From a virus, in IMG/VR virus record IMGVR_UViG_3300025133_000605, positions 1 through 23,478 of that record: 23,478 nt of DNA; one strand, given 5' to 3'. Position numbers and translations under genes: made by a program. Below are positions 242 through 15,232 of the stretch, in pieces (positions within the stretch are counted from its first letter, which is position 1; each line of letters begins with the position of its first letter). Below the pieces are notes generated by a model that was not told where the DNA came from, did not search any database, and saw nothing but the letters and a program-made list of their open reading frames with translations.

Positions 242-2311
242 TCAGTCCTCCACCACCGGCTGGATGGTGCATCGGCAGTTGATGTCCAGGGCTGGCACAC
301 CGAAGCCGCCAGGCCGCAGCGCCTGGGCCCCAGCGTACTCGCCGGTGGGGACCACGAAGGCCTGGCCAGGCACCACGGGGTCCGCGTCCTCCAGGGCCAC
401 GTGGGCGTCGCGTACGTGGTCGTCGCGGCTGCTCAACCAGTGCAGCCGCACCTTCACGCCCTGCTGCACCGCCTGCTCATAGGCGTGGTGCGCGCCCTGC
501 TGAACCGCACCGGTGGCCATGGTGGTGGCTGCGGTACGTGCACGCCCAGGCCCGAAGGCGGGGCTGTCGCGCAGGTGCTTCACCAGGGCCTCGCCGTCCA
601 GCCCCTCGTCCAGCCCCTGGGCCAGCGCGGTGCGCACCGCCTCCCGGCTGGTGGCTGCCATGTGCGTGGCGCTGCCACTCGCCAGGTCGCTCACGGCGTC
701 GGTGGCGTTCCAGGTCAGGTCGAGGTCCAGCAGCCGGGCCCCGTACCGGTGGCCCTCCTTCGCGGACAGCGCCACCGGCGAGCCCAGGGCGGCCAGCACG
801 TGCTGCGCCTCGTCGGCATCGTCGAGCACCGCTTCCAGAAGCTCGTCCAGCACACCGCGAGCCAGGCCGTCCGGTGCTGCGCGGCGACCGTGGTGCTCCA
901 GGGCCTCCACCAGGCGCAGGGTGTACCTGGAGCGCTGGGCCCGCAGGGCGCGCAGCGTCGCCAGCCCCAGCCGGCGCTCGGCGCGGTCGTGCACCTGCTC
1001 GATGTAGCCCTTCCACAGGGTGGCCCGGCCAGCCTCGTCACCAGGCCAGCCCAGGGGTGCGCGCGTCACCAGGGCCAGGGCCAGGGCGCGCGTCTCCTCG
1101 TCCTCGTCCTCGTCCTCGTCCACCAGGGGCTCGTCCGCCGGTGCCTCCTGCTCCTGTACGGGGGCGTCGTCGAAGCCCTCGTAGGCGTAGGCGTCCGGCA
1201 CGCTCATGCCGTTGGCGATGTGGGTGCCCACCCGGGCCAGGCGGTCGGTGCGGCTCTCCTGGAGCGCCTCCACCCCGCCCAGGTCGTGGCTCACGCTCAG
1301 CGCCGGGTCGTACTCCCGGGCCAGGCCCGTCAGGGCGGCATCCAGCAGCCGGCAGTCGGACGCCAGCTTCTCCCAGTACACGCGCTTCTGCTGGAGGCTG
1401 GTGGCGTAGTTCGCTGTCGGGAGCCCCACCTTCACCGGGGGGGTGCCCACCACCGCCATGGCCGTCTCGCGGTTGTAGGCGAGCAGCTTGCCGAACTCCA
1501 TGTCGCGCAGGGTGGGGTTGATGCTGTCCACCTTGGCCCGGCCGCTCGTCACCAGGGCCCCACCCTCCTGGCTCACGGCCTCGTACCGCTCACGCACCGC
1601 CTTGCGCATGGCGTCGTCCCAGAACTGCGTGGGCTCCTCGGGGCTGATCACCACGTCCGGCACACCCAGCTTCGTCATGCGGGCCGCCAGGCGCTGGGCC
1701 CGGTAGTCGGACGTCAGCGACAGGTGGAGGGGCTCCACCCCGCCCACCCCGTACACGCTGGCCTTGCCCTTCGCGTAGCTGGGCAGCCGGACGTGCAGCA
1801 CATCCTCGGGGGCCAGCTGTAGCTGCTGGCCGTCCAGGTCCAGGTCGTAGCGCAGGGGCTGGCCCAGGTGGCCGGCCACCACGCTCACGCACTCGGGGTG
1901 CAGCCGCACCAGGCTGGCGGGGGGGCGGCCCGGTGCAGGGCGCAGGAGCCACACGTAAGCGTTGCCAGCCAGCAGCAGGTCCACCCACAGCTGGCGGCGA
2001 AGCCCCTCGCCCGTCTCCCAGCTGGAGGGCTGGGCCAGCAGGTCCAGAAGCTCGTGCTGGTCCACCGGCTTGGCGTCAGCCCCTGCACCATGGGTCAGGT
2101 TCAGGGGGAGGCCCGCCAGGTCCTCGGCCACCCTGCTCACGCTGGCCACCAGCCAGGGGAACCTGGAGAAGGCAGACATGGCAGCGGCCGGGTCGTAGCC
2201 GGGTCGCTGGGGGGTCGAACTGGTGGCACCCTGGAGCCTGGGGGGCACCGGGTCAGGGGTGCTCGGGGCCAGGCGAAGGGCCTGGAGAAGTCGCGTCCAG
2301 AGGCTGGCCAT
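242..2311 (-). CDS. Portal protein fused to a MuF-like head morphogenesis domain
   Basis: A 689-residue protein. Residues about 1-385 look like an HK97-family portal: motifs such as GNAYVWLLRP, the hinge region GVGGVEPL, and a C-terminal part with VGTPPVKVG and YWEKLASDC. The dodecameric portal forms the DNA entry channel at the head vertex. An acidic linker (about residues 390-408, a run of alternating D and E encoded by a TCCTCG repeat at about 1094-1120) leads to a second domain. This domain ends with WLSSRDDHVRDAHVAL (from residue 625) and LDINCRCT near the C terminus, the signature of Mu gpF / SPP1 gp7-type minor head proteins. Portals of this class are normally 400-480 residues and MuF is usually a separate gene, so this is a real fusion. 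No toxin or other effector domain follows MuF. Start: ATG at 2309-2311, with only a weak G-rich Shine-Dalgarno sequence. Confidence 0.88.
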   Translation of the reverse strand: MASLWTRLLQALRLAPSTPDPVPPRLQGATSSTPQRPGYDPAAAMSAFSRFPWLVASVSRVAEDLAGLPLNLTHGAGADAKPVDQHELLDLLAQPSSWETGEGLRRQLWVDLLLAGNAYVWLLRPAPGRPPASLVRLHPECVSVVAGHLGQPLRYDLDLDGQQLQLAPEDVLHVRLPSYAKGKASVYGVGGVEPLHLSLTSDYRAQRLAARMTKLGVPDVVISPEEPTQFWDDAMRKAVRERYEAVSQEGGALVTSGRAKVDSINPTLRDMEFGKLLAYNRETAMAVVGTPPVKVGLPTANYATSLQQKRVYWEKLASDCRLLDAALTGLAREYDPALSVSHDLGGVEALQESRTDRLARVGTHIANGMSVPDAYAYEGFDDAPVQEQEAPADEPLVDEDEDEDEETRALALALVTRAPLGWPGDEAGRATLWKGYIEQVHDRAERRLGLATLRALRAQRSRYTLRLVEALEHHGRRAAPDGLARGVLDELLEAVLDDADEAQHVLAALGSPVALSAKEGHRYGARLLDLDLTWNATDAVSDLASGSATHMAATSREAVRTALAQGLDEGLDGEALVKHLRDSPAFGPGRARTAATTMATGAVQQGAHHAYEQAVQQGVKVRLHWLSSRDDHVRDAHVALEDADPVVPGQAFVVPTGEYAGAQALRPGGFGVPALDINCRCTIQPVVED

Positions 2312-2765: not shown

Positions 2766-4235
2766 CTACGACACCCCGGGGCGACGCCCCAGCGAGAGCA
2801 CTAGGTAGCGCAGCGCGTCGCACCCGTGGTCGTCTCGCTTGAGGGGTGCGTCAGGGGCGTCCGCCTTGCCCCCGCTGGTACGCCAGATGTACCCCTCCAG
2901 TTCGCGTATCAGCTGCTGGCAGCTGGAGTGCACCAGCAGGTGGGGCCGGCCCTCCACGTCCAGGCGCAGGCGCTCGGCCACGGCGTTGATGCCTGGCCGC
3001 ACCGCCTTCAGACCAGCCACGCTGTGGATGCCGTGCTCGCGTGCCAGGGTGAGCCTCGCGCTGGCGTCCTCCGGGTCGCACACGGTCAGCGCCACCTGCT
3101 CGGGGTGGCCGTTCAGCACCTGGGCGTGCTGCGCGATGGTGCGCTCGCGCTGGTAGTACTCCCGGAACACGTGCAGCACGTCGTCCTTCGGGTCGTGGGC
3201 CACCCACAGGCACGCGAAGGGGTTGCGCACCCCGAAGTCGATGGTGCGGTACACCGGCCAGGCGGGGGGCGGCTGGAAGGGTTCCACCACGTGGGTGGCC
3301 CGCATGAAGGTGGGCCAGACGCGGCCCTCCAGGGTGGCGAACTGTCCGTGCGCACGGGCTGCCAGTTCGTGCTCGCCGAAGCCCCGCAGCACGTCCGCGG
3401 CCTCGCCCTGGGGCAGGTACGGGTTGTCGAAGATGCTGAGCCAGGCGCTGCGGTGTAGCTCGTCGGGCTCCCCCACGAACCGGTCGTACACCCACGTCAG
3501 CCCCTTGAGCGGCGTCATGGTGAACACGGCCCGGCCCCTGCGGTCCAGCAGCCGCATGCGCGCCTCGTCCCACACCTGTCGCCGGTGCTCCTCGTCCAGC
3601 CACAGCCAGTCCCAGCTGGAGCCCTGGAAGCCCTCCCGGCCCATGGCGTCGGTCTTGAACAGCACGGTGCTGCCGTTGGGCAGCGTGGCCCGGCACTCCC
3701 CCCCGCCGAAGCGGTTGCGCCAGCGTGTGCCCTCGGGCAGGTACTGCTCCAGCATGGGGCGCTGAACCTCGATGCTGTCACCGCTGTCCAGGGCGCTGCA
3801 CGCGATGGCAGCTGGGGCCTCGGGGAACGCCAAGGGCGACACCCCGTTGCGCTGGCACCAGTCCAGCACGGCCGGGTGGTCACGGCCGTGGGCAGCGCAG
3901 GCCGTCAGCATGGCCCCCAGGAGGGTCTTGCCCGACCGGTTGCCCCCGAAGAGGGCGAAGTACCTGGGCACCTCGCCGTTGAGCATCTGGGCAGCCAGGC
4001 GCTGGCTGGTGCGCGCCTCGGGGGCCTGGCAGCCCCTGGGGCAGCTGTGCGCCTGGCCCAGGTGGTGCAGGGGGGCCTGGCAGCTGCGGCACACCGGTCG
4101 CCACGCCTCGGCCCCGTACAGGGGGAAGCGCTTCACCAGGGCCTGGTATGCCTCCAGGGCATCCACGACCTCCACCAGGCGTCGGTGCTCCAGCTGCTCC
4201 AGCTGCTGGGGGTCCAGGGCCAGGTGGCTTGACAC
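2766..4235 (-). CDS. terL: Terminase large subunit (DNA packaging ATPase/nuclease)
   Basis: A 489-residue protein. The N-terminal ATPase has Walker A GGNRSGKT (97-104), Walker B WLWLDEE (210-216) and the coupling motif FTMTP (about 238-242). The C-terminal RNase H-like nuclease has TIDFG (D333), VCDPED (D387) and HGCDALRY (D473), so all three acidic metal ligands are present. An extra zinc-binding insert, CRSC and CPRGC (C49, C52, C65, C69), sits before the ATPase. The enzyme docks on the portal, pumps DNA into the prohead and cuts the concatemer. It starts at a GTG immediately after the TAG of the preceding gene. Small terminase and portal lie on either side, as expected. Confidence 0.96.
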   Translation of the reverse strand: MSSHLALDPQQLEQLEHRRLVEVVDALEAYQALVKRFPLYGAEAWRPVCRSCQAPLHHLGQAHSCPRGCQAPEARTSQRLAAQMLNGEVPRYFALFGGNRSGKTLLGAMLTACAAHGRDHPAVLDWCQRNGVSPLAFPEAPAAIACSALDSGDSIEVQRPMLEQYLPEGTRWRNRFGGGECRATLPNGSTVLFKTDAMGREGFQGSSWDWLWLDEEHRRQVWDEARMRLLDRRGRAVFTMTPLKGLTWVYDRFVGEPDELHRSAWLSIFDNPYLPQGEAADVLRGFGEHELAARAHGQFATLEGRVWPTFMRATHVVEPFQPPPAWPVYRTIDFGVRNPFACLWVAHDPKDDVLHVFREYYQRERTIAQHAQVLNGHPEQVALTVCDPEDASARLTLAREHGIHSVAGLKAVRPGINAVAERLRLDVEGRPHLLVHSSCQQLIRELEGYIWRTSGGKADAPDAPLKRDDHGCDALRYLVLSLGRRPGVS

Positions 4236-4603: not shown

Positions 4604-5170
4604 TCACTTGTTCACCAGGGTGCCGTCGGGCAGCGCCACGGGGTGCTCCCATAGCTGCTCGGCCACGCTCGGGGGCAGCACCCCCAGGGCGGCCCTGGCC
4701 CGGTCCACCAGGGCGCTCGTGTCCACGCTGTGCGTGTGGTCGTGGCTCACCTTCACCTCCAGGGGGGCCTGGGCCCCCAGCATGCGGCTCTTCATCCCCA
4801 TCAGGCTCGTCACGGCCTTCCAGCCCGCGCTGTGCTTCCGCGTGTCGGTGCTCCTGGTGTCCTGGTACGCCTGGGCCAGCAGCCGGTCCAGCTGGAGCGC
4901 GAAGCCCTGGCGCTGGGCGCGCAGGTCCTGCTCGTCGTGGGCCTTGGCCCAGGCCGTGAGAACGTGCTTCCGGTCCATGTAGACCTGCTCCAGGCTCAGC
5001 CCGTGCCGGTCGGCGAACCGCATCAGCACGTCCCGGGTGGTGGGCGCACTGATCATCAGCTGCTCCAGCTGGGCCCGCCTGGCGGCCACCTCCGCGTTGG
5101 TCGAGCGCTTCGGGTTGCCCTTGGTGTGTCCGCTCGGCACGGTGCCCTCCAGGTGTTGCATGCCATGCAT
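4604..5170 (-). CDS. terS: Probable terminase small subunit
   Basis: A 188-residue protein. Basic N-terminus (TKGNPKRST) followed by a helix-turn-helix-like segment (about 35-68, with TTRDVLMRFADRHGLSLEQV), a helical middle that could oligomerise (RAQRQGFALQLDRLLAQAYQ) and a C-terminal region ending VALPDGTLVNK. This layout and its place two genes upstream of the large terminase fit a small terminase that recognises the packaging site. The family is too divergent to name by eye. Start could be the ATG at 5170 or a second ATG nine bases downstream; a palindrome resembling the regulator operator overlaps this start. Confidence 0.6.
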   Translation of the reverse strand: MHGMQHLEGTVPSGHTKGNPKRSTNAEVAARRAQLEQLMISAPTTRDVLMRFADRHGLSLEQVYMDRKHVLTAWAKAHDEQDLRAQRQGFALQLDRLLAQAYQDTRSTDTRKHSAGWKAVTSLMGMKSRMLGAQAPLEVKVSHDHTHSVDTSALVDRARAALGVLPPSVAEQLWEHPVALPDGTLVNK

Positions 5171-5215: not shown

Positions 5216-8200
5216 TCAGGCATCGTCCACCCCAGGCTCCTGGTCGGCCAGGCTGTCCGCCGGCACCCACCCCAGGCTCTCCTCGGGCTTGCCTGGGCCC
5301 TTCCACAGCACCACCACCTCCTGGTGGCCCCGGGCCAGCTTCCGGGCCTTCTTGAAGGCGTTGGCGGCCCGGAGGGGCATGCTCCCAGCGGGGGTCACGA
5401 GCACCGCTGTGTTGTACAGCTGGAAGCCCACGTCCTGGGCCTTGCCCATGAGCCAGCCGGGGAACCCCGACAGCTGCCCATCGCGCAGCCGGTAGTCGCC
5501 CACCACCCACACCGCGAAGGAGCCCGGCCGCAGCACGCGGTAGCTCGCCGCCAGCACGTGGTGGATGGCCAGCCGGAAGCCCTGGCGGTCCATGGTGCTC
5601 AGGTCCTGCTCCAGGTCGGAGTACCTCTCCAGCGGGCCGTACGGGGGGCACGTCAGCAGCCCGTCGAAGCTCTCGGGGGCGCAGCCCTCCAGCACCCCAG
5701 CGGCATCGCCGCACAACCACGTCGGGTCGGCCACCGGCACCGGCCCCACCTCGTTGCGGTGCCCCACCAGCCACACGCAGTCTCCAGGCTGGACGAAGGG
5801 CAGCACCTTCGCCTCGTAGTGCGGGTCCAGGGGCACCCCACCGATGGAGGCATCGACATGGGTGTCGTAGGCGGCCTCGGCATCCACCAGCGTCACCATG
5901 TCTCGCCAGTCGTCGGGGGCGTAGCGGTCCAGCCGCTTGGTGGGGCTGGCTCCCACGACGACGCCGACGACGGGCATGTCTCGCCCAGCGTCGCGCAGCC
6001 CGTGCAGCACCCCCGCCAGCGTCATGCCGCTGCCCACCACCACCACCAGGCGCTGGGCCTCCTGGGGGAGGTTCGCCACCTGGCCTCGCGTCTGCTCGAC
6101 GGCTGCCTGGCACTGCATCCCGAAGGGCACCTCTTGCCAGCCCAGGCGCTTGGCGTCCTCCCGGGCCTTCGCCGCCAGGTTGCTCGCCCTGGGGAACTGC
6201 GCCACACGGACGGCCCCCGCCCACAGGGCCTCGCGCACCTGGGGGCCTGGCGGGCCTCCCGGGGTGTGCACCCTGCACGGGATGCCCAGGTGCTGGGCGA
6301 TGCGCGCGACCAGGGCCACCTGGGGGCTGTCGGCGCTGCCTCCCGTCACCACGCCCACCCCGCGCTCGGCTGCTGCCTGGCACAGGGCGAAGCAGGTGCG
6401 GGCCTTGCCACCGCGCACCCCGGCGACGGTGTACAGGTCATCGCGCTTGAGCCAAACGCCCAGCCCACCCTTGTGGACCGAATCCCCCTCGTGCGGGTAG
6501 TGCTCCACCGGCGTCACCTCGGGCTGGCTGGTGTCCCCCACCAGGCCGGGCCGGCTCAGGCCAGCTGCGCGCCACGCCTCACAGTTCGCATCCACCTGCA
6601 CCGCTCGGAGGTCGATCCCGGTGTAGTGGTAGCCCAGGTGGGCAGCTACAGCCCCGCGCACCGTGGCCCCGGCGAAGGGGTCGAGCACCTGGCCGCCCTC
6701 GGGCATGAACCAGCGCAGCATCAGTTCGCACAGGGTGCCGTCGAAGCTGCTGCCTCCGTGCTCCTGCTTCAGCCCCGCGCTGCGGTCCAGGTCGGGGCTG
6801 CTGCTGGTGCTCCCCAGGAAGTCCTTCCCCAGGCTCGGCCGCACCCCCGGCTGGTCGCGCCACCACCGCTTCCGCGCTTGCCAGTAGCCCTGGCGGCTGT
6901 CCAGCACGCTGAACGGGGGCGCGCCGAAGCGCTCGGCCAGCGTCTCTTTCACCGGGTCCGCGTACCTGCTGCCCTGCTGCACCTCGTCCAGCCAGGCCGC
7001 TGCCTCCCCCTCGGTGAAGCCCAGGCCGTCCAGGCCGCTGCCAGCATCCATGCACTCGCGCAGGATGGCCTCCAGGGCCTCGTCCTCCCAGGAGGCTAGC
7101 TCAGCGGTGCGGTTCAGCGCGACCGACAGGCGCTTCCGCGCGTGGTCATCTACGTCCACCTCCACCACGTCAGCATGGGTCCAGCCCAGGTGCGCCATGG
7201 CCAGGTGGGTGCCGTTGCCAGCCACGATGACCCCGGTGCCCTTCTGCACCACCAGGGGTGACACCTGGCCGTGGGTGCGCAGGCTGGCGGCGATGGCTTC
7301 GATGTTCCTGGCGCTGTGGGCCCGCGGGTTCGTCGGGTCCTGCTTCATCTCGTGCAGGGCCATGCTCATCACGGCCAGCCCGTGGGTGGGGGCCGCGCTG
7401 GGCGGGGCCTGCTTCGGCGTCGGCGTCGGTGCGGCCATGGGGGCCTCCTTCGGGTTCAGCCCAGCCCACACGGCCGGGTCGATGTTCACGTCGCCCAGCC
7501 GGTAGACGGGCACCTCGGTGGCCCCCCGCAGGCTGGCCTTGAAGCTGGCGAGCCCGCGGCCCGCACTGGCGGGGGTGCCCCCGATGCTCACCTGGGCGTC
7601 CAGCCCGTGGCGCTCGGCGATGCGGCGCATGTCTACGAGGTGCAGGATGCGCGCAGCCTCCCCCCCCAGGTGCTCCCGGCTGGCCTGGTAGTCCACCGGG
7701 CCCGCGGCCACGTAGACCTGGCCTGGCCCCTGCGCCTGGTGGATGCTCGCGGCCACCAGGGTGTCCCCCGCCCACAGGCCGAAGTGATCGCTACTCCCGG
7801 CCAGGGGGGGCACCTGGCCCTTGGAGTGATCGCGGCCCTGCTCGACCCAGCGGTCCACCAGGGCGTCCAGCTGGTCGGCCGTCACCGGCCCCACGGTGCA
7901 GTCCCCCCGGGCCAGCAGCCGGGCCCGCTTGTGCCTCCAGGTTCGCCAGGCTGGCCCCTCCAGGCCCACCCACTCACGGGGCGAGAACACCACCTCTCGC
8001 ACCAGGGGGTCCCCTCCCACCACCTGGCCCAGGCGCTGGGCATCGAAGGGCGACAGCTGGGCACTCAGCCCCGCCTCGCGCAGCTGCGCCAGCACGCCCT
8101 GCTCCAGGTCGGCATCACCGGACAGCGACATGGGGGGAGCCACCACCTCGGCCACGTACGTCTGGAACACCTTCGACCGGCGCACCACCACCAGGCAGCC

Positions 8201-8362
8201 GGCCACCAGGCCGGTGTAGTACCCCCTGCTCGTGGCGAGCCACACGCTGGCCAGGTGCGCCAGGGGCGGGCCCCCGGCTGCTGCCCTGGCGGCCAGGTAG
8301 GGGGCCCACAGCACCGCGGTGTCGCTGGCGTGGACCTTGCGGAAGCCAGCCAGGGGGTTCAT
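5216..8362 (-). CDS. Giant DNA-modification fusion: FemAB/GNAT-like + ParB-like + DNA methyltransferase interrupted by a PLP enzyme
   Basis: A 1048-residue protein from the ATG at 8360-8362, overlapping the stop of the SLOG-like gene (ATGA). Residues 1-290: FemAB/GNAT-like acyltransferase (a GLxVAGxLVVV-type strand pair, and GRGLASFKASLRG near the end, as in FemAB folds). Residues 330-465: ParB-like, with NPRAHS and GNGTHLAMAHLGW. Residues 484-610: first half of a phage DNA methyltransferase (SVLDSRQGYWQARKRWW, then SAM motif I DPFAGA at 561-566 and TGIDL). Residues about 616-868: fold-type II PLP enzyme of the ACC deaminase/D-cysteine desulfhydrase type (LKRDDL, GGK with K653 as the expected PLP lysine, GSGMT at 778-781). 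Residues 875-1025: catalytic half (TCPPYGPLERYSD at 904-916, FAVWVVGDYR, HQEVVVLWKG). Likely role, by inference: base modification of phage DNA against host restriction, with chemistry beyond plain methylation. Confidence 0.85.
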   Translation of the reverse strand: MNPLAGFRKVHASDTAVLWAPYLAARAAAGGPPLAHLASVWLATSRGYYTGLVAGCLVVVRRSKVFQTYVAEVVAPPMSLSGDADLEQGVLAQLREAGLSAQLSPFDAQRLGQVVGGDPLVREVVFSPREWVGLEGPAWRTWRHKRARLLARGDCTVGPVTADQLDALVDRWVEQGRDHSKGQVPPLAGSSDHFGLWAGDTLVAASIHQAQGPGQVYVAAGPVDYQASREHLGGEAARILHLVDMRRIAERHGLDAQVSIGGTPASAGRGLASFKASLRGATEVPVYRLGDVNIDPAVWAGLNPKEAPMAAPTPTPKQAPPSAAPTHGLAVMSMALHEMKQDPTNPRAHSARNIEAIAASLRTHGQVSPLVVQKGTGVIVAGNGTHLAMAHLGWTHADVVEVDVDDHARKRLSVALNRTAELASWEDEALEAILRECMDAGSGLDGLGFTEGEAAAWLDEVQQGSRYADPVKETLAERFGAPPFSVLDSRQGYWQARKRWWRDQPGVRPSLGKDFLGSTSSSPDLDRSAGLKQEHGGSSFDGTLCELMLRWFMPEGGQVLDPFAGATVRGAVAAHLGYHYTGIDLRAVQVDANCEAWRAAGLSRPGLVGDTSQPEVTPVEHYPHEGDSVHKGGLGVWLKRDDLYTVAGVRGGKARTCFALCQAAAERGVGVVTGGSADSPQVALVARIAQHLGIPCRVHTPGGPPGPQVREALWAGAVRVAQFPRASNLAAKAREDAKRLGWQEVPFGMQCQAAVEQTRGQVANLPQEAQRLVVVVGSGMTLAGVLHGLRDAGRDMPVVGVVVGASPTKRLDRYAPDDWRDMVTLVDAEAAYDTHVDASIGGVPLDPHYEAKVLPFVQPGDCVWLVGHRNEVGPVPVADPTWLCGDAAGVLEGCAPESFDGLLTCPPYGPLERYSDLEQDLSTMDRQGFRLAIHHVLAASYRVLRPGSFAVWVVGDYRLRDGQLSGFPGWLMGKAQDVGFQLYNTAVLVTPAGSMPLRAANAFKKARKLARGHQEVVVLWKGPGKPEESLGWVPADSLADQEPGVDDA
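5759..6517 (-). other. PLP-enzyme domain inserted inside the methyltransferase
   Basis: This is the part of the fusion protein encoding residues about 616-868. It aligns by eye to ACC deaminase/D-cysteine desulfhydrase-like enzymes: LKRDDL, then GGK-x-R for the Schiff-base lysine, GGSADSPQVALVARIAQHLG in place of the usual GG-x2-SNH-x3-TA segment, and the phosphate-binding GSGMTLAGVL. The usual SNH is DSP here, so substrate preference may differ from ACC or D-cysteine. Flanking sequence on both sides belongs to one methyltransferase. Confidence 0.75.
7436..7452 (-). promoter_or_regulatory. Internal ribosome binding site and ATG inside the fusion gene
   Basis: On the minus strand AAGGAGG (7444-7450) stands five bases before an in-frame ATG (7436-7438, codon 309). 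The surrounding bases equal those at the real start of the ERF gene. Initiation here would yield a 740-residue ParB-methyltransferase-PLP protein without the acyltransferase domain. Confidence 0.6.
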
Positions 8363-8766
8363 GCGTGCTCCGCCAGCATGCGCTGGAGGTCGAGGGCTAT
8401 CTGGTTGCTGTCGGCCACGCTGGAGAGGAGCCCCAGCAGCTGCCCACCCTCGTGGGCCTGGACGATGGCTGGCTCCAGGGTGGTGTCGCCCCGCTGCCAG
8501 AAGGCCACCAGGGCGGGGGCCAGGCGCAGCATCGACGCCGCGTGGTCGGCATGCGACTCCCCAGGCCTGCGGTGCACGAAGGCCACCGGCCGCCCCTGGG
8601 CCCGGCACCAGGCACCCACGGCCAGGGCCTCCAGGTGGCCGGCCACGACCACCGGGGTGTCCAGTGCCACACCCTCCAGGAAGCTGGCCCACAGGTGCTG
8701 GTCGGTCCAGCCCGGGCTCACGGCGACGGCAAGGGCCCGCAGGCCCCTGGTGGGGGTGTTGCTCAT
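8359..8766 (-). CDS. SLOG/DUF2493-like nucleotide-binding protein
   Basis: A 135-residue protein from the ATG at 8764-8766, preceded by GGAGG at good spacing. The sequence fits a small Rossmann-like SLOG domain (YspA/DUF2493 type): strand ALAVAVSPGWTD, then VVVAGHLEALAVGAWCRAQGRPVAFVHR, a helix, APALVAFWQRGDTT, and a final helix with EPAIVQAHEGG. These correspond to the strand-glycine-rich loop, the GxD-type helix and the viaFwdG-sGT segment of that family, though the GT motif reads GDTT. SLOG proteins bind nucleotides or nucleotide-derived ligands. Its stop overlaps the start of the modification fusion, so the two are translated together. Function in phages is unknown. Confidence 0.55.
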   Translation of the reverse strand: MSNTPTRGLRALAVAVSPGWTDQHLWASFLEGVALDTPVVVAGHLEALAVGAWCRAQGRPVAFVHRRPGESHADHAASMLRLAPALVAFWQRGDTTLEPAIVQAHEGGQLLGLLSSVADSNQIALDLQRMLAEHA

Positions 8767-8788
8767 GGGTGCCTCCACCCCCACCCTA

Positions 8789-8995
8789 TCACCCACCGCC
8801 CAGGCGCTCGCACTGGTAGGCGGTGCAGGGCTGGCCGTCCGCGGGGTGCCCGCTGGGGCATGCCTCCTCGTCCGGCACCTGCTGGCCCACCCGGCCAGGA
8901 GGCAGCCCCGTGCCAGCGCACCTCGTGCACGGCACCAGGCACAGTCCATCCGGGGTGACCGTGTGGCCGGTCCCTTCACAGTCCTGACAGGTCAT
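8789..8995 (-). CDS. Small protein with DnaJ-type zinc motifs
   Basis: A 68-residue protein starting at an ATG that overlaps the helicase stop (ATGA). It has two CxxCxGxG repeats, CQDCEGTG (3-10) and CTRCAGTG, the zinc-binding repeat of DnaJ cysteine-rich domains, without a J domain. A further C-x-S-G-H and two more Cys follow in the second half. Such free-standing DnaJ-type zinc modules are common among phage small proteins, and their partners are generally unknown. Too short for more to be said. Confidence 0.75.
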   Translation of the reverse strand: MTCQDCEGTGHTVTPDGLCLVPCTRCAGTGLPPGRVGQQVPDEEACPSGHPADGQPCTAYQCERLGGG

Positions 8996-10350
8996 GCCAG
9001 GTCCCGTCGGTTGGCGTTCCAGGTGCCGGGGGTGGCCTCCTGGGGGGTGAAGGACGGGCCGGTGGCACTGGTGAACTTCTGCCTGTGCGGCTGCCAGCGC
9101 AGGTGCGCCACCCCGGTGCGCCCGTTCCTGGCCTTCGCCACGTCCGCCTCGGCGGCCTCGGGGTCCGCGTCGTCGGGGTGGTAGTAGGCGTGTCGGTACA
9201 GGAAGCACACGGTGTCGGCGTCCTGCTCGATGGCACCGCTGTCGCGCAGGTCCGCCATCATGGGCCGCTTGTCCTGGCGGGCCTCCACCCCGCGGTTCAG
9301 CTGGCTCAGCACCAGCACCGGCACCTTCAACTCCATCGCCAGGAGCTTCAGGGCCCGGCTGTTGGTGCTGACGCGCTCCTCCTTCGACAGGGCCTTGCCG
9401 GTCATCAGCTGGAGGTAGTCCACCACCACCAGGCCCAGGGGCTGCTTGGCCGCCAGCCGGCGCACCTTCGCGCACAGCTGGGGGGCCGTGGCGACCCCGG
9501 TGTCCTCCACCCACAGGGGCAGCCGGTAGAGGTCCTCGCTGCCACCCACCAGCTGGTCGAAGTCGCTGGGGGCCAGGTTCCCCGTGCGCAGCTTCCAGGC
9601 ATCCACCCCGCTGGCCGTCACCACCAGCCGGTCCATCAGCTGCTCACGGCTCATCTCCAGGCTGGCGAAGGCGACGCCCAGGCCGGCCTGGGCCACGGAC
9701 AGCGCCAGGTTCAGGGCCAGCGCCGTCTTGCCCATGCTGGGCCGGGCCGCCAGCACCACCATGTCGGTGGCTTGGATGCCGCCCAGGAGGTCGTCCAGGG
9801 CCTCCAGCCCGGTGCCCAGGCCGCACACCTCCCCACGGGCATGGGCCTCGGCCCGGCGCTCATAGTCGGCCATCCGGGCCGTCAGCAGGGTGTCGGGGCT
9901 GCTCCAGGTGGCACTGCTTCCCCGCTGGGCCAGGGCCCGCAGGGCCTGCTCGGCAGCCTCCACCACGTCGTCGAGTTCGCGGCTGGTGTCCTGCGCCGTC
10001 GCCGCCAGCGCCTGGCCAGCCTCCACGGCGCACCGGCGCATCGCCGCTCGCGTCACCTGGCCAGCGTGCCAGGCCAGGTCCATGCCGCTGGCGTGGTCGC
10101 CCAGCCCGGCCAGGTACATCGCCCCGCCCAGGCGCTCGGCCACCTCGGGGTGACCCTCCAGGCGGTCGAACAAGGCCACGGTGTCCATGGGCCGGCCCAG
10201 CCGGTACTGCTCGCGCAGCAGCTGGTAGAGCACCCGGTGGCGCTCCCGGCCGAAGTCCTCGGGCTGCACCACGTCCGCGATCTCGCGCATGCCATCCGGG
10301 CCCACCAGGAGGCTGCCCAGCAGGGCGCGCTCGGCACCGGCGGCGGTCAC
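8992..10350 (-). CDS. dnaB: Replicative DNA helicase, DnaB family
   Basis: A 452-residue protein. The N-terminal DnaB domain (E-x2-LLGSLLVGPDG through about residue 140) and a RecA-type ATPase: Walker A ARPSMGKT (202-209), FASLEMSREQLMDRL, Walker B VVVDYLQL (308-315), LSQLNRGVEAR and RDSGAIEQDAD. It is a hexameric 5'-3' helicase that unwinds the phage replication fork. The preferred start is the GTG at 10348-10350, which overlaps the stop of the upstream zinc protein (GTGA) and removes about 29 non-conserved residues. The initiator/loader gene lies two genes upstream. No DNA polymerase or primase is visible in the window, so these must be elsewhere or host-supplied. Confidence 0.96.
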   Translation of the reverse strand: MTAAGAERALLGSLLVGPDGMREIADVVQPEDFGRERHRVLYQLLREQYRLGRPMDTVALFDRLEGHPEVAERLGGAMYLAGLGDHASGMDLAWHAGQVTRAAMRRCAVEAGQALAATAQDTSRELDDVVEAAEQALRALAQRGSSATWSSPDTLLTARMADYERRAEAHARGEVCGLGTGLEALDDLLGGIQATDMVVLAARPSMGKTALALNLALSVAQAGLGVAFASLEMSREQLMDRLVVTASGVDAWKLRTGNLAPSDFDQLVGGSEDLYRLPLWVEDTGVATAPQLCAKVRRLAAKQPLGLVVVDYLQLMTGKALSKEERVSTNSRALKLLAMELKVPVLVLSQLNRGVEARQDKRPMMADLRDSGAIEQDADTVCFLYRHAYYHPDDADPEAAEADVAKARNGRTGVAHLRWQPHRQKFTSATGPSFTPQEATPGTWNANRRDLA

Positions 10351-10664
10351 GATGCCGCCAGGCAGGGCACCAGGCCCTGGCGCGAGGGCTTCTGGTCGCT
10401 GCCGGTGCGCTGGCTGGGCAAGCAGCCCTCCTGACACCGGAGGCAGACGAACCGCTTGCGCACCTCGTCCACCAGCACCACCAGCCGGCTGGTGCCCTTG
10501 CTACGGAAGGTCTTCGCGCCACAGCAGCAGCACGTCGCGCGGTATCGCCAGGTCGGGTCACCCTTGTGCCGTGCACGTGTGCCCCTGGCCCGACAGCTGA
10601 TGGTGTCCCGGCACAGCTGGCCGGGGGCGGCCCCGCAGGTGGGGCAGGTGTCGTCGAGGTTCAC
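10347..10664 (-). CDS. Small zinc-binding phage protein (CPxCGAxPGxxC type)
   Basis: A 105-residue protein starting at a GTG (10662-10664) overlapping the upstream stop. It opens with CPTCGAAPGQLCRD, the short zinc motif frequent in actinophage proteins, followed by ATCCCCGAKTF and FVCLRCQEGC, giving a second likely zinc site (CCCC with CLRC). The basic character (RARGTRARHKGD) suggests nucleic-acid contact. It is coupled by overlaps to the proteins before and after it and so is produced with the DnaB helicase. Confidence 0.75.
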   Translation of the reverse strand: MNLDDTCPTCGAAPGQLCRDTISCRARGTRARHKGDPTWRYRATCCCCGAKTFRSKGTSRLVVLVDEVRKRFVCLRCQEGCLPSQRTGSDQKPSRQGLVPCLAAS

Positions 10665-12291: not shown

Positions 12292-12849
12292 TCAGGGCGT
12301 GTCGGTGGCTGGCTGGCCCAGCCTCCCGTGCAGTGCGGCCAGCCACCCCTTGCGGGGGTCCACGGCCAGGCCCAGGTCCTCGCACGCTGCGCGGTCCAGC
12401 GAGGCCCAGCCGCGGGGGGCGCTACCCCCGCTCCAGCGCTGCCAGGCGGGGGCGATGCCGGGGGTGCCGGCCCAGGTGCCCCAGGGCAGCAGGTAGGGCT
12501 TGGTCCCCAGCAGGAGCAGCACCCCGGCCCGCCCCCCCATGCGCTCCCACCAGGCGAAGTGCGTCGCCTGGTGGAGGGGGAGCTTGCTCAGGGGCCAGCG
12601 CTTCGCCGCGCATGCCTTGGCGTCGAAGCACACCGCGAGGCCCACCCCGCCCACCTGCACCAGGCCGGTGTAGTCGGGGGGGGCCGCTGCGGTGTAGCAG
12701 GCCGTGAAGGTGCCAGCCCGAAGGCCGGGCCCCAGCATGCGCAGGGGGGGCGGCGAGCGCACCAGCAGGGCCTGGCCCTGGAGGGCATACAGGTCGTGCC
12801 ATCCATCCAGGGTGCGCTCCCAAGCGGCCCCTCGGTTCGCGTGGCTCAC
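12292..12849 (-). CDS. RecU-like Holliday junction resolvase
   Basis: A 185-residue protein from a GTG (12847-12849) overlapping the upstream stop. It follows the RecU pattern: ANRGAAWERTLD at the N terminus (N-R-G and E11), LLVRSPPPLRML, then APPDYTGLVQVGG (D59), VCFDAKAC (D76, K78), LHQATHFAWWER and a final LLLLGTKPYLLPW strand pair. RecU is a PD-(D/E)xK-fold enzyme that cuts four-way junctions made during recombination or replication. The conserved acidic residues and lysine appear present. Length is close to the usual 170-200. In phages a resolvase of this sort clears branches before packaging. It is the last gene of the unit, followed at once by a terminator. Confidence 0.75.
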   Translation of the reverse strand: MSHANRGAAWERTLDGWHDLYALQGQALLVRSPPPLRMLGPGLRAGTFTACYTAAAPPDYTGLVQVGGVGLAVCFDAKACAAKRWPLSKLPLHQATHFAWWERMGGRAGVLLLLGTKPYLLPWGTWAGTPGIAPAWQRWSGGSAPRGWASLDRAACEDLGLAVDPRKGWLAALHGRLGQPATDTP

Positions 12850-13277
12850 CGGGCCTCCTTCACCCACAGGGCCTCCACCATGCGCTCACCGGCCGGGGTG
12901 GGGTAGAACCGCCCCCGCCAGGTGGCCAGGTGGCCATTGGAACGAGCCCAGGCACCCCACGAGCGCATCACGTTGGAGCCCCGCCCCCGGAGCAGGGGCA
13001 GCCTGCTCGCCTCCTCGACGGTGAGTGCCAGGCGGCCCTGGCTGGCGCACCACACCTGTCGCGACACCTGGCCGTACCAGCCCGGCTCGCTGCCTGGCGT
13101 GTAGCTGTCCGCCAGCACCAGGCGTCGGGGCGTCGCCGGGTACACCAGGGCCAGCCGTCGCAGGCTCCCCACCAGGGCCGCTAGCTGGGGCCGGTGGGGA
13201 AACTCCTCGCCCAGGTCCCCCAGGCTCATCCCGGGCCAGGCCACCACGGCCGTCAGCACCTCCATCGCGGGGGTCAC
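12846..13277 (-). CDS. Winged-helix-like DNA-binding protein, unknown role
   Basis: A 143-residue protein. The GTG start (13275-13277) overlaps the stop of the nuclease gene (GTGA). MEVLTAVVAWPGMSLGDLGEEF with RPQLAALVGSLRRLALVYPA reads as a winged helix-turn-helix, and the C-terminal GHLATWRGRFYPTPAGERMVEAL looks like a second wing and helix of MarR/PadR-like type. Placed between the Cas4-like nuclease and the resolvase, it may recruit them to DNA or act as a local regulator. No specific family recognised. Confidence 0.6.
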   Translation of the reverse strand: MTPAMEVLTAVVAWPGMSLGDLGEEFPHRPQLAALVGSLRRLALVYPATPRRLVLADSYTPGSEPGWYGQVSRQVWCASQGRLALTVEEASRLPLLRGRGSNVMRSWGAWARSNGHLATWRGRFYPTPAGERMVEALWVKEAR

Positions 13278-14470
13278 TCTTCACCTCGCCCGGCCGGGCT
13301 GGTGGTGCAGGGGAGGCACCACCGACCACCGTCGCCGGTGGGGGCCGAACCGGTGTCCACCAGGAGCGCGTCGCACCCGGGCCGCTGGCACCGACCTTGG
13401 ATGAGCACCTGCCTCCAGTCGCTGCGGTACACCGGGGCCTCGGGGTAGTCCTCGGGCAGCAGCAGGGTGGTGCTGGGGCGGCCCCGCCAGTCGCGCTTCA
13501 CCCCCTCGCTGGCGCTGGCCCAGCACGTCCGCCAGAAGGAGCAGTACACGCACTGCCAGGGCAGTTCGTAGCCCTTGCCGCGCTTCCGCTCCTTCGGCAC
13601 CAGGGGCTCGCCGTCCGGCATCACCCTGGGCACGTCGGTGGGGCACCCGCTGTGCACCACCGCCTGAGTGTTCGCCAGGGCCTGGAGGTGTCGCTGTCGG
13701 CTGAACGACTGCCACCAGCCCACCACCACACCGCTGTCGCCGCAGATGCCCAGGACGTACCCGGCGGGGCTGCTGGTGGAGCGCAGGTAGGCGTTCAGCT
13801 GCCACGCATAGCTCTCATCGTCATCCCAGGGCTCCACCCCCCGGGCCAGGGCCTTCTGCACCTTGGTGATGGCGTAGCTGCTCAGGCTCTTGCACTCCAC
13901 GGGGTAGCGCACGTGGTCGGGGCCGCTCAGCAGGGCGTCCAGCGTCACCGGCACCGGTGCGCCAGCGCCCAGCCACAGCTGGCCGGGGGCCCCCGCACCG
14001 GTCCAGCGCCAGCGGGCCACGGCGTCGCACAGCTGGCGCTCGTCGGCCGTGGGGGGGTGCTCGTCGTCCTGGAGCCAGTCCCAGGCCTCGCCGTCCACCC
14101 GGCCAGCGTGGTGCCGGCACAGCAGGATGGCATCGCGCAGCGCGTACAGCAGCAGGGCCTCGGCGGCGTCGCCCAGGGCGAAGCGGGCCTTCGCCTTCGC
14201 GCCCAGCTTCCGACCGTCCGCCGGGGTGTCGTGCCAGCGGTGGGCCTGGGCCCGAACGCACTTGCCCAGGGCGCTGCCCCGGAACGGGCTGCTGTGCTGG
14301 ACGGGGCCGTGGTCAGCGTGCAGCTGGCGCAGCACGTCCCGGCCGATGCTCCCGGCCGCCCAGGGGGGCGGGGTGGTGGGCTGGGGGCGCGCCAGGCGCA
14401 GGCGCACCAGGCGGGCCAGGTCGGGCAGGCCGTCCAGGCGGGGGTTGCGGTCGTGGAGAAGGGTGGCCAC
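13274..14470 (-). CDS. Cas4/RecB-like PD-(D/E)xK nuclease with Fe-S cysteines and an extra zinc knuckle
   Basis: A 398-residue protein from the GTG 14468-14470, preceded by the start-associated leader. Nuclease core: TLDALLSG (D178), YPVECKS (E192, K194) and WQLNAYLRS (Q224). A cysteine at C71 (ALGKCVRAQAHRW) plus C307, C310 and C316 (CVYCSFWRTC) reproduces the four-cysteine Fe-S arrangement of Cas4/AddB-type nucleases. Beyond the usual domain, C361, C366, C385 and C388 form a likely zinc ribbon at the C terminus. In phages such nucleases pair with an annealing protein: the exonuclease makes single-stranded ends and the annealase pairs them. The ERF annealase is the next gene upstream. No cas1 or cas2 is present, so a CRISPR role is not indicated. 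Confidence 0.82.
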   Translation of the reverse strand: MATLLHDRNPRLDGLPDLARLVRLRLARPQPTTPPPWAAGSIGRDVLRQLHADHGPVQHSSPFRGSALGKCVRAQAHRWHDTPADGRKLGAKAKARFALGDAAEALLLYALRDAILLCRHHAGRVDGEAWDWLQDDEHPPTADERQLCDAVARWRWTGAGAPGQLWLGAGAPVPVTLDALLSGPDHVRYPVECKSLSSYAITKVQKALARGVEPWDDDESYAWQLNAYLRSTSSPAGYVLGICGDSGVVVGWWQSFSRQRHLQALANTQAVVHSGCPTDVPRVMPDGEPLVPKERKRGKGYELPWQCVYCSFWRTCWASASEGVKRDWRGRPSTTLLLPEDYPEAPVYRSDWRQVLIQGRCQRPGCDALLVDTGSAPTGDGGRWCLPCTTSPAGRGEE

Positions 14471-14476
14471 GGGGGC

Positions 14477-14487
14477 CTCCTGTGTTG
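14477..14487 (-). promoter_or_regulatory. Start-associated leader of the nuclease gene
   Basis: CAACACAGGAG on the minus strand, six bases before the GTG at 14470. It decides the GTG start, since no ATG lies near. Confidence 0.7.
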
Positions 14488-14517
14488 GTGGTGGTTCCAG
14501 CTGTGGGCTGGCCCGAA

Positions 14518-14574
14518 GCCACCAGGGTGCGTCACGGCCCCACAGGACGGGAGGGCCGGGGGCACCCTGGTGGC
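14518..14574. repeat. Large intergenic stem-loop between ERF and nuclease genes
   Basis: GCCACCAGGGTGC (14518-14530) and GCACCCTGGTGGC (14562-14574) make a perfect 13-bp outer stem; GGCCC (14536-14540) and GGGCC (14553-14557) make an inner stem. No U-run follows on the minus strand, so it may be a processing or attenuation structure rather than a classical terminator. Confidence 0.65.
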
Positions 14575-14587
14575 CAGGGGTCAGGGC

Positions 14588-15232
14588 TCAGCTGTGCTCG
14601 CCAGCGCTGTCGCTGGGCGCGTACAGGTCCGGCTCGTTGCCAGCGGCCAGGGCGTCGATGAACCGGGCCCTGTCGTCGCTGTGCCAGGTGCTGGGCCTGG
14701 TGCCACCCTTGCCCTCCAGGTAGGCGGCTACCTGCTCGTACCGCAGGCCGAACTCGCGCAGCTGCACCATGAAGCGCTTGTGGTCGGCCTCCCAGCTGGG
14801 GTGGTGCTTCGGGCGCTCGGGCTGCTGGGGCTCCTGGCCCTGGCCGCTGGCTGCGTTGCCGTCGTCGTCGTCGTCGGCGGCCAGGCAGCACATCGCGGCC
14901 AGGCTGTACCGGCGCAGGTACGTGATGGCGCTGCCCATCGCCTGGGGGTCGTCCTTCCGTGGGCGCGCGCTCAGCGTGCAGCGCAGGCTGTCGCCGCCCC
15001 ACAGAAGCTCGGTGGTCACCTCCACCCGGTTCGCTTCGGCGTTCCAGCTGGGGGCCTGGAGCACCGCGATGCCGTGCTTCGACAGGATGGGGCGGGTGGC
15101 GTCGATCACGCTCGCCAGGCTGGCGAAGCGGCTGTTGAAGTGCGGGTTGTTCTTGTCGATGGTGGCGTGGCTCATCTCGGCCTGGGCTGCGGCCAGGGCT
15201 GCGGCGATGGAGTCGTGCTTCGGTGCGGCCAT
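14588..15232 (-). CDS. erf: ERF-family single-strand annealing protein
   Basis: A 214-residue protein starting at the ATG 15230-15232, with AGGAGG nearby. Core motifs of the ERF superfamily are clear: DKNNPHFNSRFASLASVIDA (27-45), ILSKHGIAVLQ (49-59), and GSAITYLRRYSLAAMCCLA (100-118), followed by an acidic run DDDDDGN. ERF proteins coat single-stranded DNA and anneal complementary strands in RecA-independent recombination, usually with a partner exonuclease, here the next gene. The C-terminal 80 residues are a variable, charged region. Recognition is strong; the length is normal. Confidence 0.93.
   Translation of the reverse strand: MAAPKHDSIAAALAAAQAEMSHATIDKNNPHFNSRFASLASVIDATRPILSKHGIAVLQAPSWNAEANRVEVTTELLWGGDSLRCTLSARPRKDDPQAMGSAITYLRRYSLAAMCCLAADDDDDGNAASGQGQEPQQPERPKHHPSWEADHKRFMVQLREFGLRYEQVAAYLEGKGGTRPSTWHSDDRARFIDALAAGNEPDLYAPSDSAGEHS

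Follow-up and report, generated by a model that had tools for sequence, protein, structure and literature searches.

The virus fragment analysed here, IMG/VR record IMGVR_UViG_3300025133_000605 over its full 23,478 bases (hereafter the window), encodes a fusion protein of 1048 amino acids that very probably serves DNA modification of some kind. It combines an acyltransferase-like region, a ParB-like domain and a methyltransferase (MT) domain into which a pyridoxal 5'-phosphate (PLP) enzyme is inserted. This architecture is best explained by a base that is derived from an amino acid and possibly acylated. This idea was already contained in a preliminary description of the sequence and is kept here, while the origin of the arm from S-adenosylmethionine (SAM) was absent from that description. 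In our model, which we consider to have about an even chance, the MT domain would transfer the aminocarboxypropyl arm of SAM to a base and the other domains would tailor this arm. With slightly less assurance, we suggest that many phage enzymes, mostly unannotated and forming one large family, transfer SAM arms onto DNA bases, a 3-amino-3-carboxypropyl (acp) arm in an Arg-type and an aminopropyl arm in a Phe-type, with PLP, Fe/2-oxoglutarate hydroxylase and aminoacyltransferase tailoring functions that can be fused to them. The model is built on the domains, the coupling of genes and the correlation between motif and partner, all of which were directly observed, whereas the donor, the product, the sequence of the steps and the protection of the genome are inferred. 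The parts of the fusion gene are as follows.

5216..8362, minus strand: whole fusion protein, 1048 amino acids, with N-terminal acyltransferase-like region, ParB, first MT half, PLP enzyme and second MT half (reading frame, Pfam, PHROGs)
7433..8362, minus strand: probable MprF/FemAB-like tandem-GNAT (aminoacyltransferase-like) domain, residues 1-310 (homologues L158, L342 and L343; LPG_synthase_C; Foldseek)
6968..7378, minus strand: ParB-like N-terminal domain, residues 329-465 (phrog_620, E=1e-31; ParB_N, E=0.0017; PDB match to nucleoid occlusion protein)
6533..6919, minus strand: first half of the MT-like domain, residues 482-610, corresponding to the C-terminal end of the PF01555 profile (Pfam, PHROGs)
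6653..6682, minus strand: SAM-binding motif I DPFAGATVRG of the Arg type, residues 561-570 (family alignment)
5753..6526, minus strand: fold-type-II PLP enzyme, similar to 1-aminocyclopropane-1-carboxylate (ACC) deaminase and D-cysteine desulfhydrase, residues 613-870 (Pfam, PHROGs, PDB, structure model)
5279..5731, minus strand: second half of the MT-like domain, residues 878-1028, corresponding to the start of PF01555 (PHROGs, PDB match, alignment)
5639..5650, minus strand: catalytic motif IV CPPY, residues 905-908 (family alignment)

On the minus strand, the gene runs through 1048 codons as a single unbroken frame, with the ATG at 8362 and the stop codon at 5216-5218. The uninterrupted frame reported in the preliminary description was found again; as a correction, the protein is encoded on the minus strand and has to be read from 8362 to 5216. 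The ParB-like, methyltransferase and internal PLP domains recognized in the same description were likewise recovered by the profile searches. Pfam ParB_N matches residues 333-413, and phrog_498, a DNA methyltransferase family, is matched with E=3e-88 in two stretches within residues 538-1025. Pfam N6_N4_Mtase also hits the fusion in two pieces (E=5e-8). Relative to PF01555, the MT is circularly permuted in its match, in which residues 543-589 around motif I correspond to the profile end and the part from about residue 878 onwards, with motif IV, to the profile start, as in the relatives. Judging from this order, ParB followed by an N6/N4-type MT with motif I before CPPY, the fusion belongs to the phage ParB-MT family (phrog_498/phrog_620). 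The window MT retains 50 of the 54 columns that are conserved to at least 90% in 108 relatives and seems therefore undecayed. According to the family alignment and the match of motif I to 2zie, the Arg of motif I appears to stand where the GTGTT loop of ordinary enzymes has its second Thr.

The PLP domain is inserted between MT motifs I and IV, precisely at the permutation junction. An insertion may be tolerated there because a non-permuted MT would have its free ends at this point. Pfam PALP covers residues 617-809 (E=5e-11), and two PHROGs families with PLP annotation were matched, phrog_3650 (E=8e-30) and phrog_7093 (E=7e-8). The active-site features comprise the putative Schiff-base Lys653, the phosphate loop GSG at 777-779 and Tyr849; the Schiff-base lysine, the GSG loop and the Y-E-A-K motif are kept in the window protein and, with few exceptions, in 164 PLP relatives. 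An AlphaFold2 model of the core from a 23-row alignment reached a mean predicted local distance difference test (pLDDT) value of 77, with mostly about 90 or above in the PLP domain, and its best PDB fold match was D-cysteine desulfhydrase (E=8e-12), besides ACC deaminase and serine/threonine dehydratases. Fold, lysine, GSG loop and the Y-E-A/G-K motif place the inserted domain among the fold-type-II PLP enzymes. It is not a member of the ACC deaminase or D-cysteine desulfhydrase equivalogs, for which it scored at most 36 bits against NCBIfam cut-offs of 289-610. Moreover, the canonical Asn of the S-N-Q/H motif, which follows the substrate-binding Ser, is replaced by Pro; therefore, the enzyme probably acts on a substrate other than those of the known subfamilies.

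The preliminary description knew of no characterised protein with this arrangement; the ParB-MT-PLP core recurs in phages and is not a one-off. The same insertion point is used in Pseudanabaena phage Pam4, Erythrobacter phage R6L and about 27 IMG/VR viral contigs, and the insertion was also found in bacterial genomes (L344, L350). The uncharacterised proteins Pam4_70 and R6L gp1 have the same ParB, MT and inserted PLP domains, with about 44% identity between the Pam4 and window proteins over the aligned core, but they differ in the absence of the N-terminal MprF/FemAB-like domain and in a linker of the first MT half that is 80-110 amino acids longer. The phage S-2L carries 2-aminoadenine. Pam4 has been reported as a relative of S-2L (PMC9382816). 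In other phages the same MT and PLP families are, unlike in the window, separate polypeptides encoded by overlapping genes beside the terminase, as in mycobacteriophage Vincenzo (gp1 and gp2) and Microcystis phage Mae-JY30. Such an overlap exists in 109 of the 130 loci in which a separate PLP gene adjoins the MT gene, and a scan unbiased toward PLP found a PLP gene nearby for 10 of 59 non-redundant Arg-type MTs. A quick tree of the family indicates that the fused state has been gained or lost several times. The MT gene of the relatives usually lies just upstream of the terminase genes.

Some relatives of the Arg-type/PLP group (L095, L096, L206, L208) possess in addition a GNAT-like domain and an aspartyl/asparaginyl beta-hydroxylase, either fused to the MT or beside it. 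In one of them (L206:4918-8756) the MT is distributed over two overlapping frames, the PLP enzyme being on the first and the GNAT-like domain, the hydroxylase and the CPPY half on the second, which can be either a natural split or a frameshift. Two fusions (L204 and L205) contain an extra Cys-rich domain after the PLP domain, at about residues 690-889 and 590-792, respectively, with the motifs CxGxCC, CGNLGPxGCxL and KPVTCLLYP; it has no significant Pfam match. Regarding annotation, Vincenzo gp1 and gp2 are listed as ParB-like partition protein and carboxylate deaminase, and the Mae-JY30 gene annotated as 'DNA modification methylase' (L012:6756-7466) encodes the PLP enzyme, likely a misannotation. 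In Staphylococcus phage Alsa_1, a PLP relative (L020:5890-6618) and a DNA methyltransferase of a different, non-ParB kind are one kilobase apart, separated by a coding sequence without assigned function.

The SAM-binding loop and its partner genes may point to the nature of the donor. Two loop types occur among the ParB-MTs, DPFAGGSVRG (Arg-type) and DCFAGDxxFG (Phe-type). In a set reduced to 178 non-redundant sequences (41 Phe-type, 137 Arg-type), an adjacent or overlapping SAM decarboxylase gene was present for 38 of the 41 Phe-type MTs versus none of the 137 Arg-type MTs, and the PLP partner was seen only with the Arg-type. This split of partners repeats in bacterial genome contigs. When whole virus records were searched with PF02675, none of 37 Arg-type records gave a match, while all five Phe-type controls were positive; none of eight Phe-type loci lacking an adjacent decarboxylase gene has one anywhere in the record. 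The operons of Croceibacter phage P2559S and Pseudomonas phage ZRG1 encode the same ParB-MT family as the window but carry Phe for Arg in motif I and a SAM decarboxylase (AdoMetDC) in place of the PLP enzyme. In P2559S, the AdoMetDC gene overlaps the Phe-type MT gene. Such an overlap of AdoMetDC with Phe-type ParB-MTs (L014:5295-5615, L104-L183) represents a widespread operon.

Among the phage homologues of SpeD there can also be decarboxylases of arginine or ornithine (PMC10407285). This identity was rejected for the partner decarboxylases, because they show AdoMetDC-type residues and include one proven AdoMetDC, that of P2559S, which complemented an E. coli speD deletion for spermidine synthesis (PMC9992855). 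The others retain an HTFPE-type centre with residues in agreement with AdoMetDC. The simplest interpretation is a Phe-type MT with decarboxylated SAM as its donor. This compound is known to supply aminopropyl groups, as in the spermidine synthase reaction, and not methyl groups. The loss of Arg from the SAM-binding loop would then make structural sense, because the donor loses its carboxylate; in CmoX, an Arg that recognises the carboxylate of the donor has been described (PMC12783734). If the same logic is applied to the Arg-type, it would move the acp arm of intact SAM. It may be that the published P2559S AdoMetDC serves DNA modification instead of polyamine synthesis.

With regard to the mechanism, the ParB-like domain would help to bind DNA, and the MT-like domain would not, or not only, methylate but move the acp arm of SAM to the exocyclic amine of adenine or cytosine, with 5'-methylthioadenosine as the by-product. 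The resulting acp-base would suit a PLP enzyme because it carries an alpha-amino acid. The PLP domain might then work on the alpha-carbon of this base-linked amino acid by deamination/elimination, racemisation or decarboxylation. With decarboxylation, both branches would end in aminopropyl bases, although this reaction is uncommon among enzymes of the fold; deamination or elimination would be more typical of the fold but would take away the amine needed by the cap, unless the cap is added first or elsewhere. The cap itself, an acyl or aminoacyl group on the free amine, could be provided by the N-terminal MprF/FemAB-like domain. In the Phe-type branch, SAM would be decarboxylated first and the aminopropyl arm transferred afterwards. 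The beta-hydroxylase partners fit this model, because such an enzyme acts on amino-acid side chains. The alteration probably occurs before packaging, because the module adjoins the terminase, and it might protect the genome from host nucleases; a protection from restriction is plausible.

The N-terminal 310 residues are probably an MprF/FemAB-like aminoacyltransferase, because PF09924 (LPG_synthase_C), Foldseek and hhalign agree. PF09924 is the only Pfam family that matches all four members of the N-terminal alignment, with E=0.15 for the window and 1.8e-4 for the best homologue. The top two Foldseek matches were MprF-type domains (E=0.006-0.007), obtained with a low-confidence N-terminal model (pLDDT 43), and hhalign scored MprF with 28 compared to 13-18 for four unrelated control profiles, at a probability of only 6%. 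Hence, the earlier proposal of a FemAB/GNAT-like domain is probable, although all matches are below the family cut-offs. The comparison with Mom made at the same time seems less apt, since the domain probably resembles MprF/FemAB aminoacyltransferases rather than Mom; no Mom-annotated match was obtained for the N-terminal 311 amino acids in Pfam or PHROGs, where the presence of a Mom model was not checked. Neither a meaningful PDB sequence match nor, in 39 relatives, an Acetyltransf_6 hit above cut-off was found. Relatives of the domain alone appeared neither in the viral-contig scan nor in tblastn searches of isolated phages; they surfaced only via the open reading frames of related loci. In three contigs the domain is a separate gene upstream of a Phe-type MT-AdoMetDC operon, with a 4-nt overlap. 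One acyl- or aminoacyltransferase-like domain may serve both branches, because the domain of the window also sits by Phe-type operons; a primary amine would be the feature common to the proposed products of both.

Several points weigh against the transfer of a SAM-derived arm. The base product is known for no family member, and we know of no fold-type-II PLP enzyme acting on a DNA-linked amino acid. Three of the 41 Phe-type MTs, as well as L408, are without a decarboxylase even across the whole record. The Phe-type forms a single clade nested among Arg-types in the quick tree, and because of this the switch from Arg to Phe together with the decarboxylase counts as one unreplicated evolutionary event, although one that is maintained across a deep, diverse clade. 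In the window MT a unique Pro replaces the usual Asp/Asn after CPPY. The core model (predicted template modelling score 0.47) does not fix the relative placing of the active sites, and LPG_synthase_C remains below its Pfam cut-off of 27.5 with 11.6 bits for the window and 21.1 bits for L158. Finally, a PLP partner is missing for many Arg-type MTs, which could simply methylate. In this regard, the product of the MT might be ordinary N6-methyladenine or N4-methylcytosine, and the other two domains, PLP and acyltransferase, might carry out an independent modification or be passengers; the MT domain indeed matches many ordinary methyltransferases. We consider this unlikely, because the repeated PLP fusion and gene overlap and the tight link between motif and AdoMetDC are hard to explain with a methyl group only.

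It is also rather improbable that an unusual donor is first produced by the PLP domain, out of SAM or another small amino acid, and that the MT domain then transfers the resulting group to DNA. There is a precedent in phage S-B43, where the Cx-SAM synthase CmoA works with the methyltransferase homologue CmoX; the PLP gene is often separate, like that of a cofactor-making enzyme, and AdoMetDC likewise precedes the transfer in the Phe-type. However, the insertion within the MT and the added beta-hydroxylase fit tailoring on the base at least equally well, and SAM does not stay chemically stable once deaminated. That the protein modifies no DNA but serves as an anti-defence device by using up SAM or an amino acid is very improbable. 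PLP enzymes of the same fold are lyases and deaminases, and SAM lyases of phages have been described, as noted in PMC12783734, but the ParB and the MT with intact catalytic motifs in one chain and the constant position beside the terminase point to DNA. Hence, we prefer the transfer of the SAM arm to a base with subsequent tailoring.

Related chemistry exists in other systems. In the TYW2/TYW5 pathway of tRNA wybutosine synthesis, a methyltransferase homologue transfers acp from SAM and the side chain is hydroxylated afterwards, which is an analogy only, since it acts on tRNA with unrelated enzymes. PLP enzymes take part in the 5-hydroxymethyldeoxyuridine-derived hypermodification of phages ViI and M6, which goes along with phage genes for a hydroxymethylase, a DNA kinase and a pyrophosphorylase. 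The abstract of Iyer et al. 2013 (NAR) reportedly predicts phage base modifications from modified SAM derivatives, and that paper may already contain part of the idea. The CmoX/CmoA/CmoY system of Synechococcus phage S-B43 produces 5-carboxymethylcytosine and then its glycine amide (PMC12783734). It is alike in principle, as a reactive group from an unconventional donor of the SAM type is first attached by a methyltransferase homologue and then extended by later enzymes, but it differs in the C5-cytosine fold, the Cx-SAM donor and the ATP-dependent ligase, and it includes no ParB, PLP or GNAT protein. With its other fold class, partners and proposed donor, the window protein is probably not a member of that system, and sequence comparison places it outside every characterised equivalog of the ParB-MT and fold-type-II PLP families. 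A literature search found no paper on the ParB-MT-PLP architecture or on acp or aminopropyl DNA.

The gene neighbourhood was read within the same fragment.

242-2311, minus strand: portal/Mu-F fusion (Pfam/PHROGs)
2766..4235, minus strand: large terminase subunit (Terminase_6N/6C, phrog_2)
4604..5170, minus strand: candidate small terminase subunit, the next gene downstream (by position, as in relatives, and character only)
8359..8979, minus strand: upstream open reading frame without assigned function, its stop overlapping the fusion start (ATGA) (open reading frame list)
8992-10437, minus strand: DnaB helicase (Pfam/PHROGs)

The clear neighbours all share the orientation of the fusion gene, and the module adjoins the packaging genes. 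The upstream frame, for which no Pfam match was found, probably belongs to the same operon. In the protein encoded at 242-2311, portal and Mu-F-like head morphogenesis domains are joined in one chain of 689 amino acids. A recombination cluster at 12292-15232 (minus strand) comprises a RecU-like resolvase, a Cas4-type exonuclease and an ERF annealing protein. A tRNA-Lys(CTT) called by ARAGORN at 2677-2752 on the plus strand, antisense to the operon between portal and terminase, would have suited an MprF-like lysyltransferase; this idea was dropped because the tRNA model of Rfam gives no match at that place, even with E=1 as the threshold.

To our knowledge, a SAM-derived, amino-acid-like arm is a kind of DNA base modification that has yet to be demonstrated. 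If the model is true, it would define a new class of DNA base modification, with the window protein as its single-chain form, in which the arm is acylated as well. An amine or amino-acid handle would join the hydroxyl and carboxyl handles known from phage DNA hypermodification, and the enzymes could be used for the amine-labelling of DNA. Moreover, exact new nucleoside masses are predicted in culturable phages, and a widespread gene family now labelled ParB-like partition protein would gain a testable chemistry.

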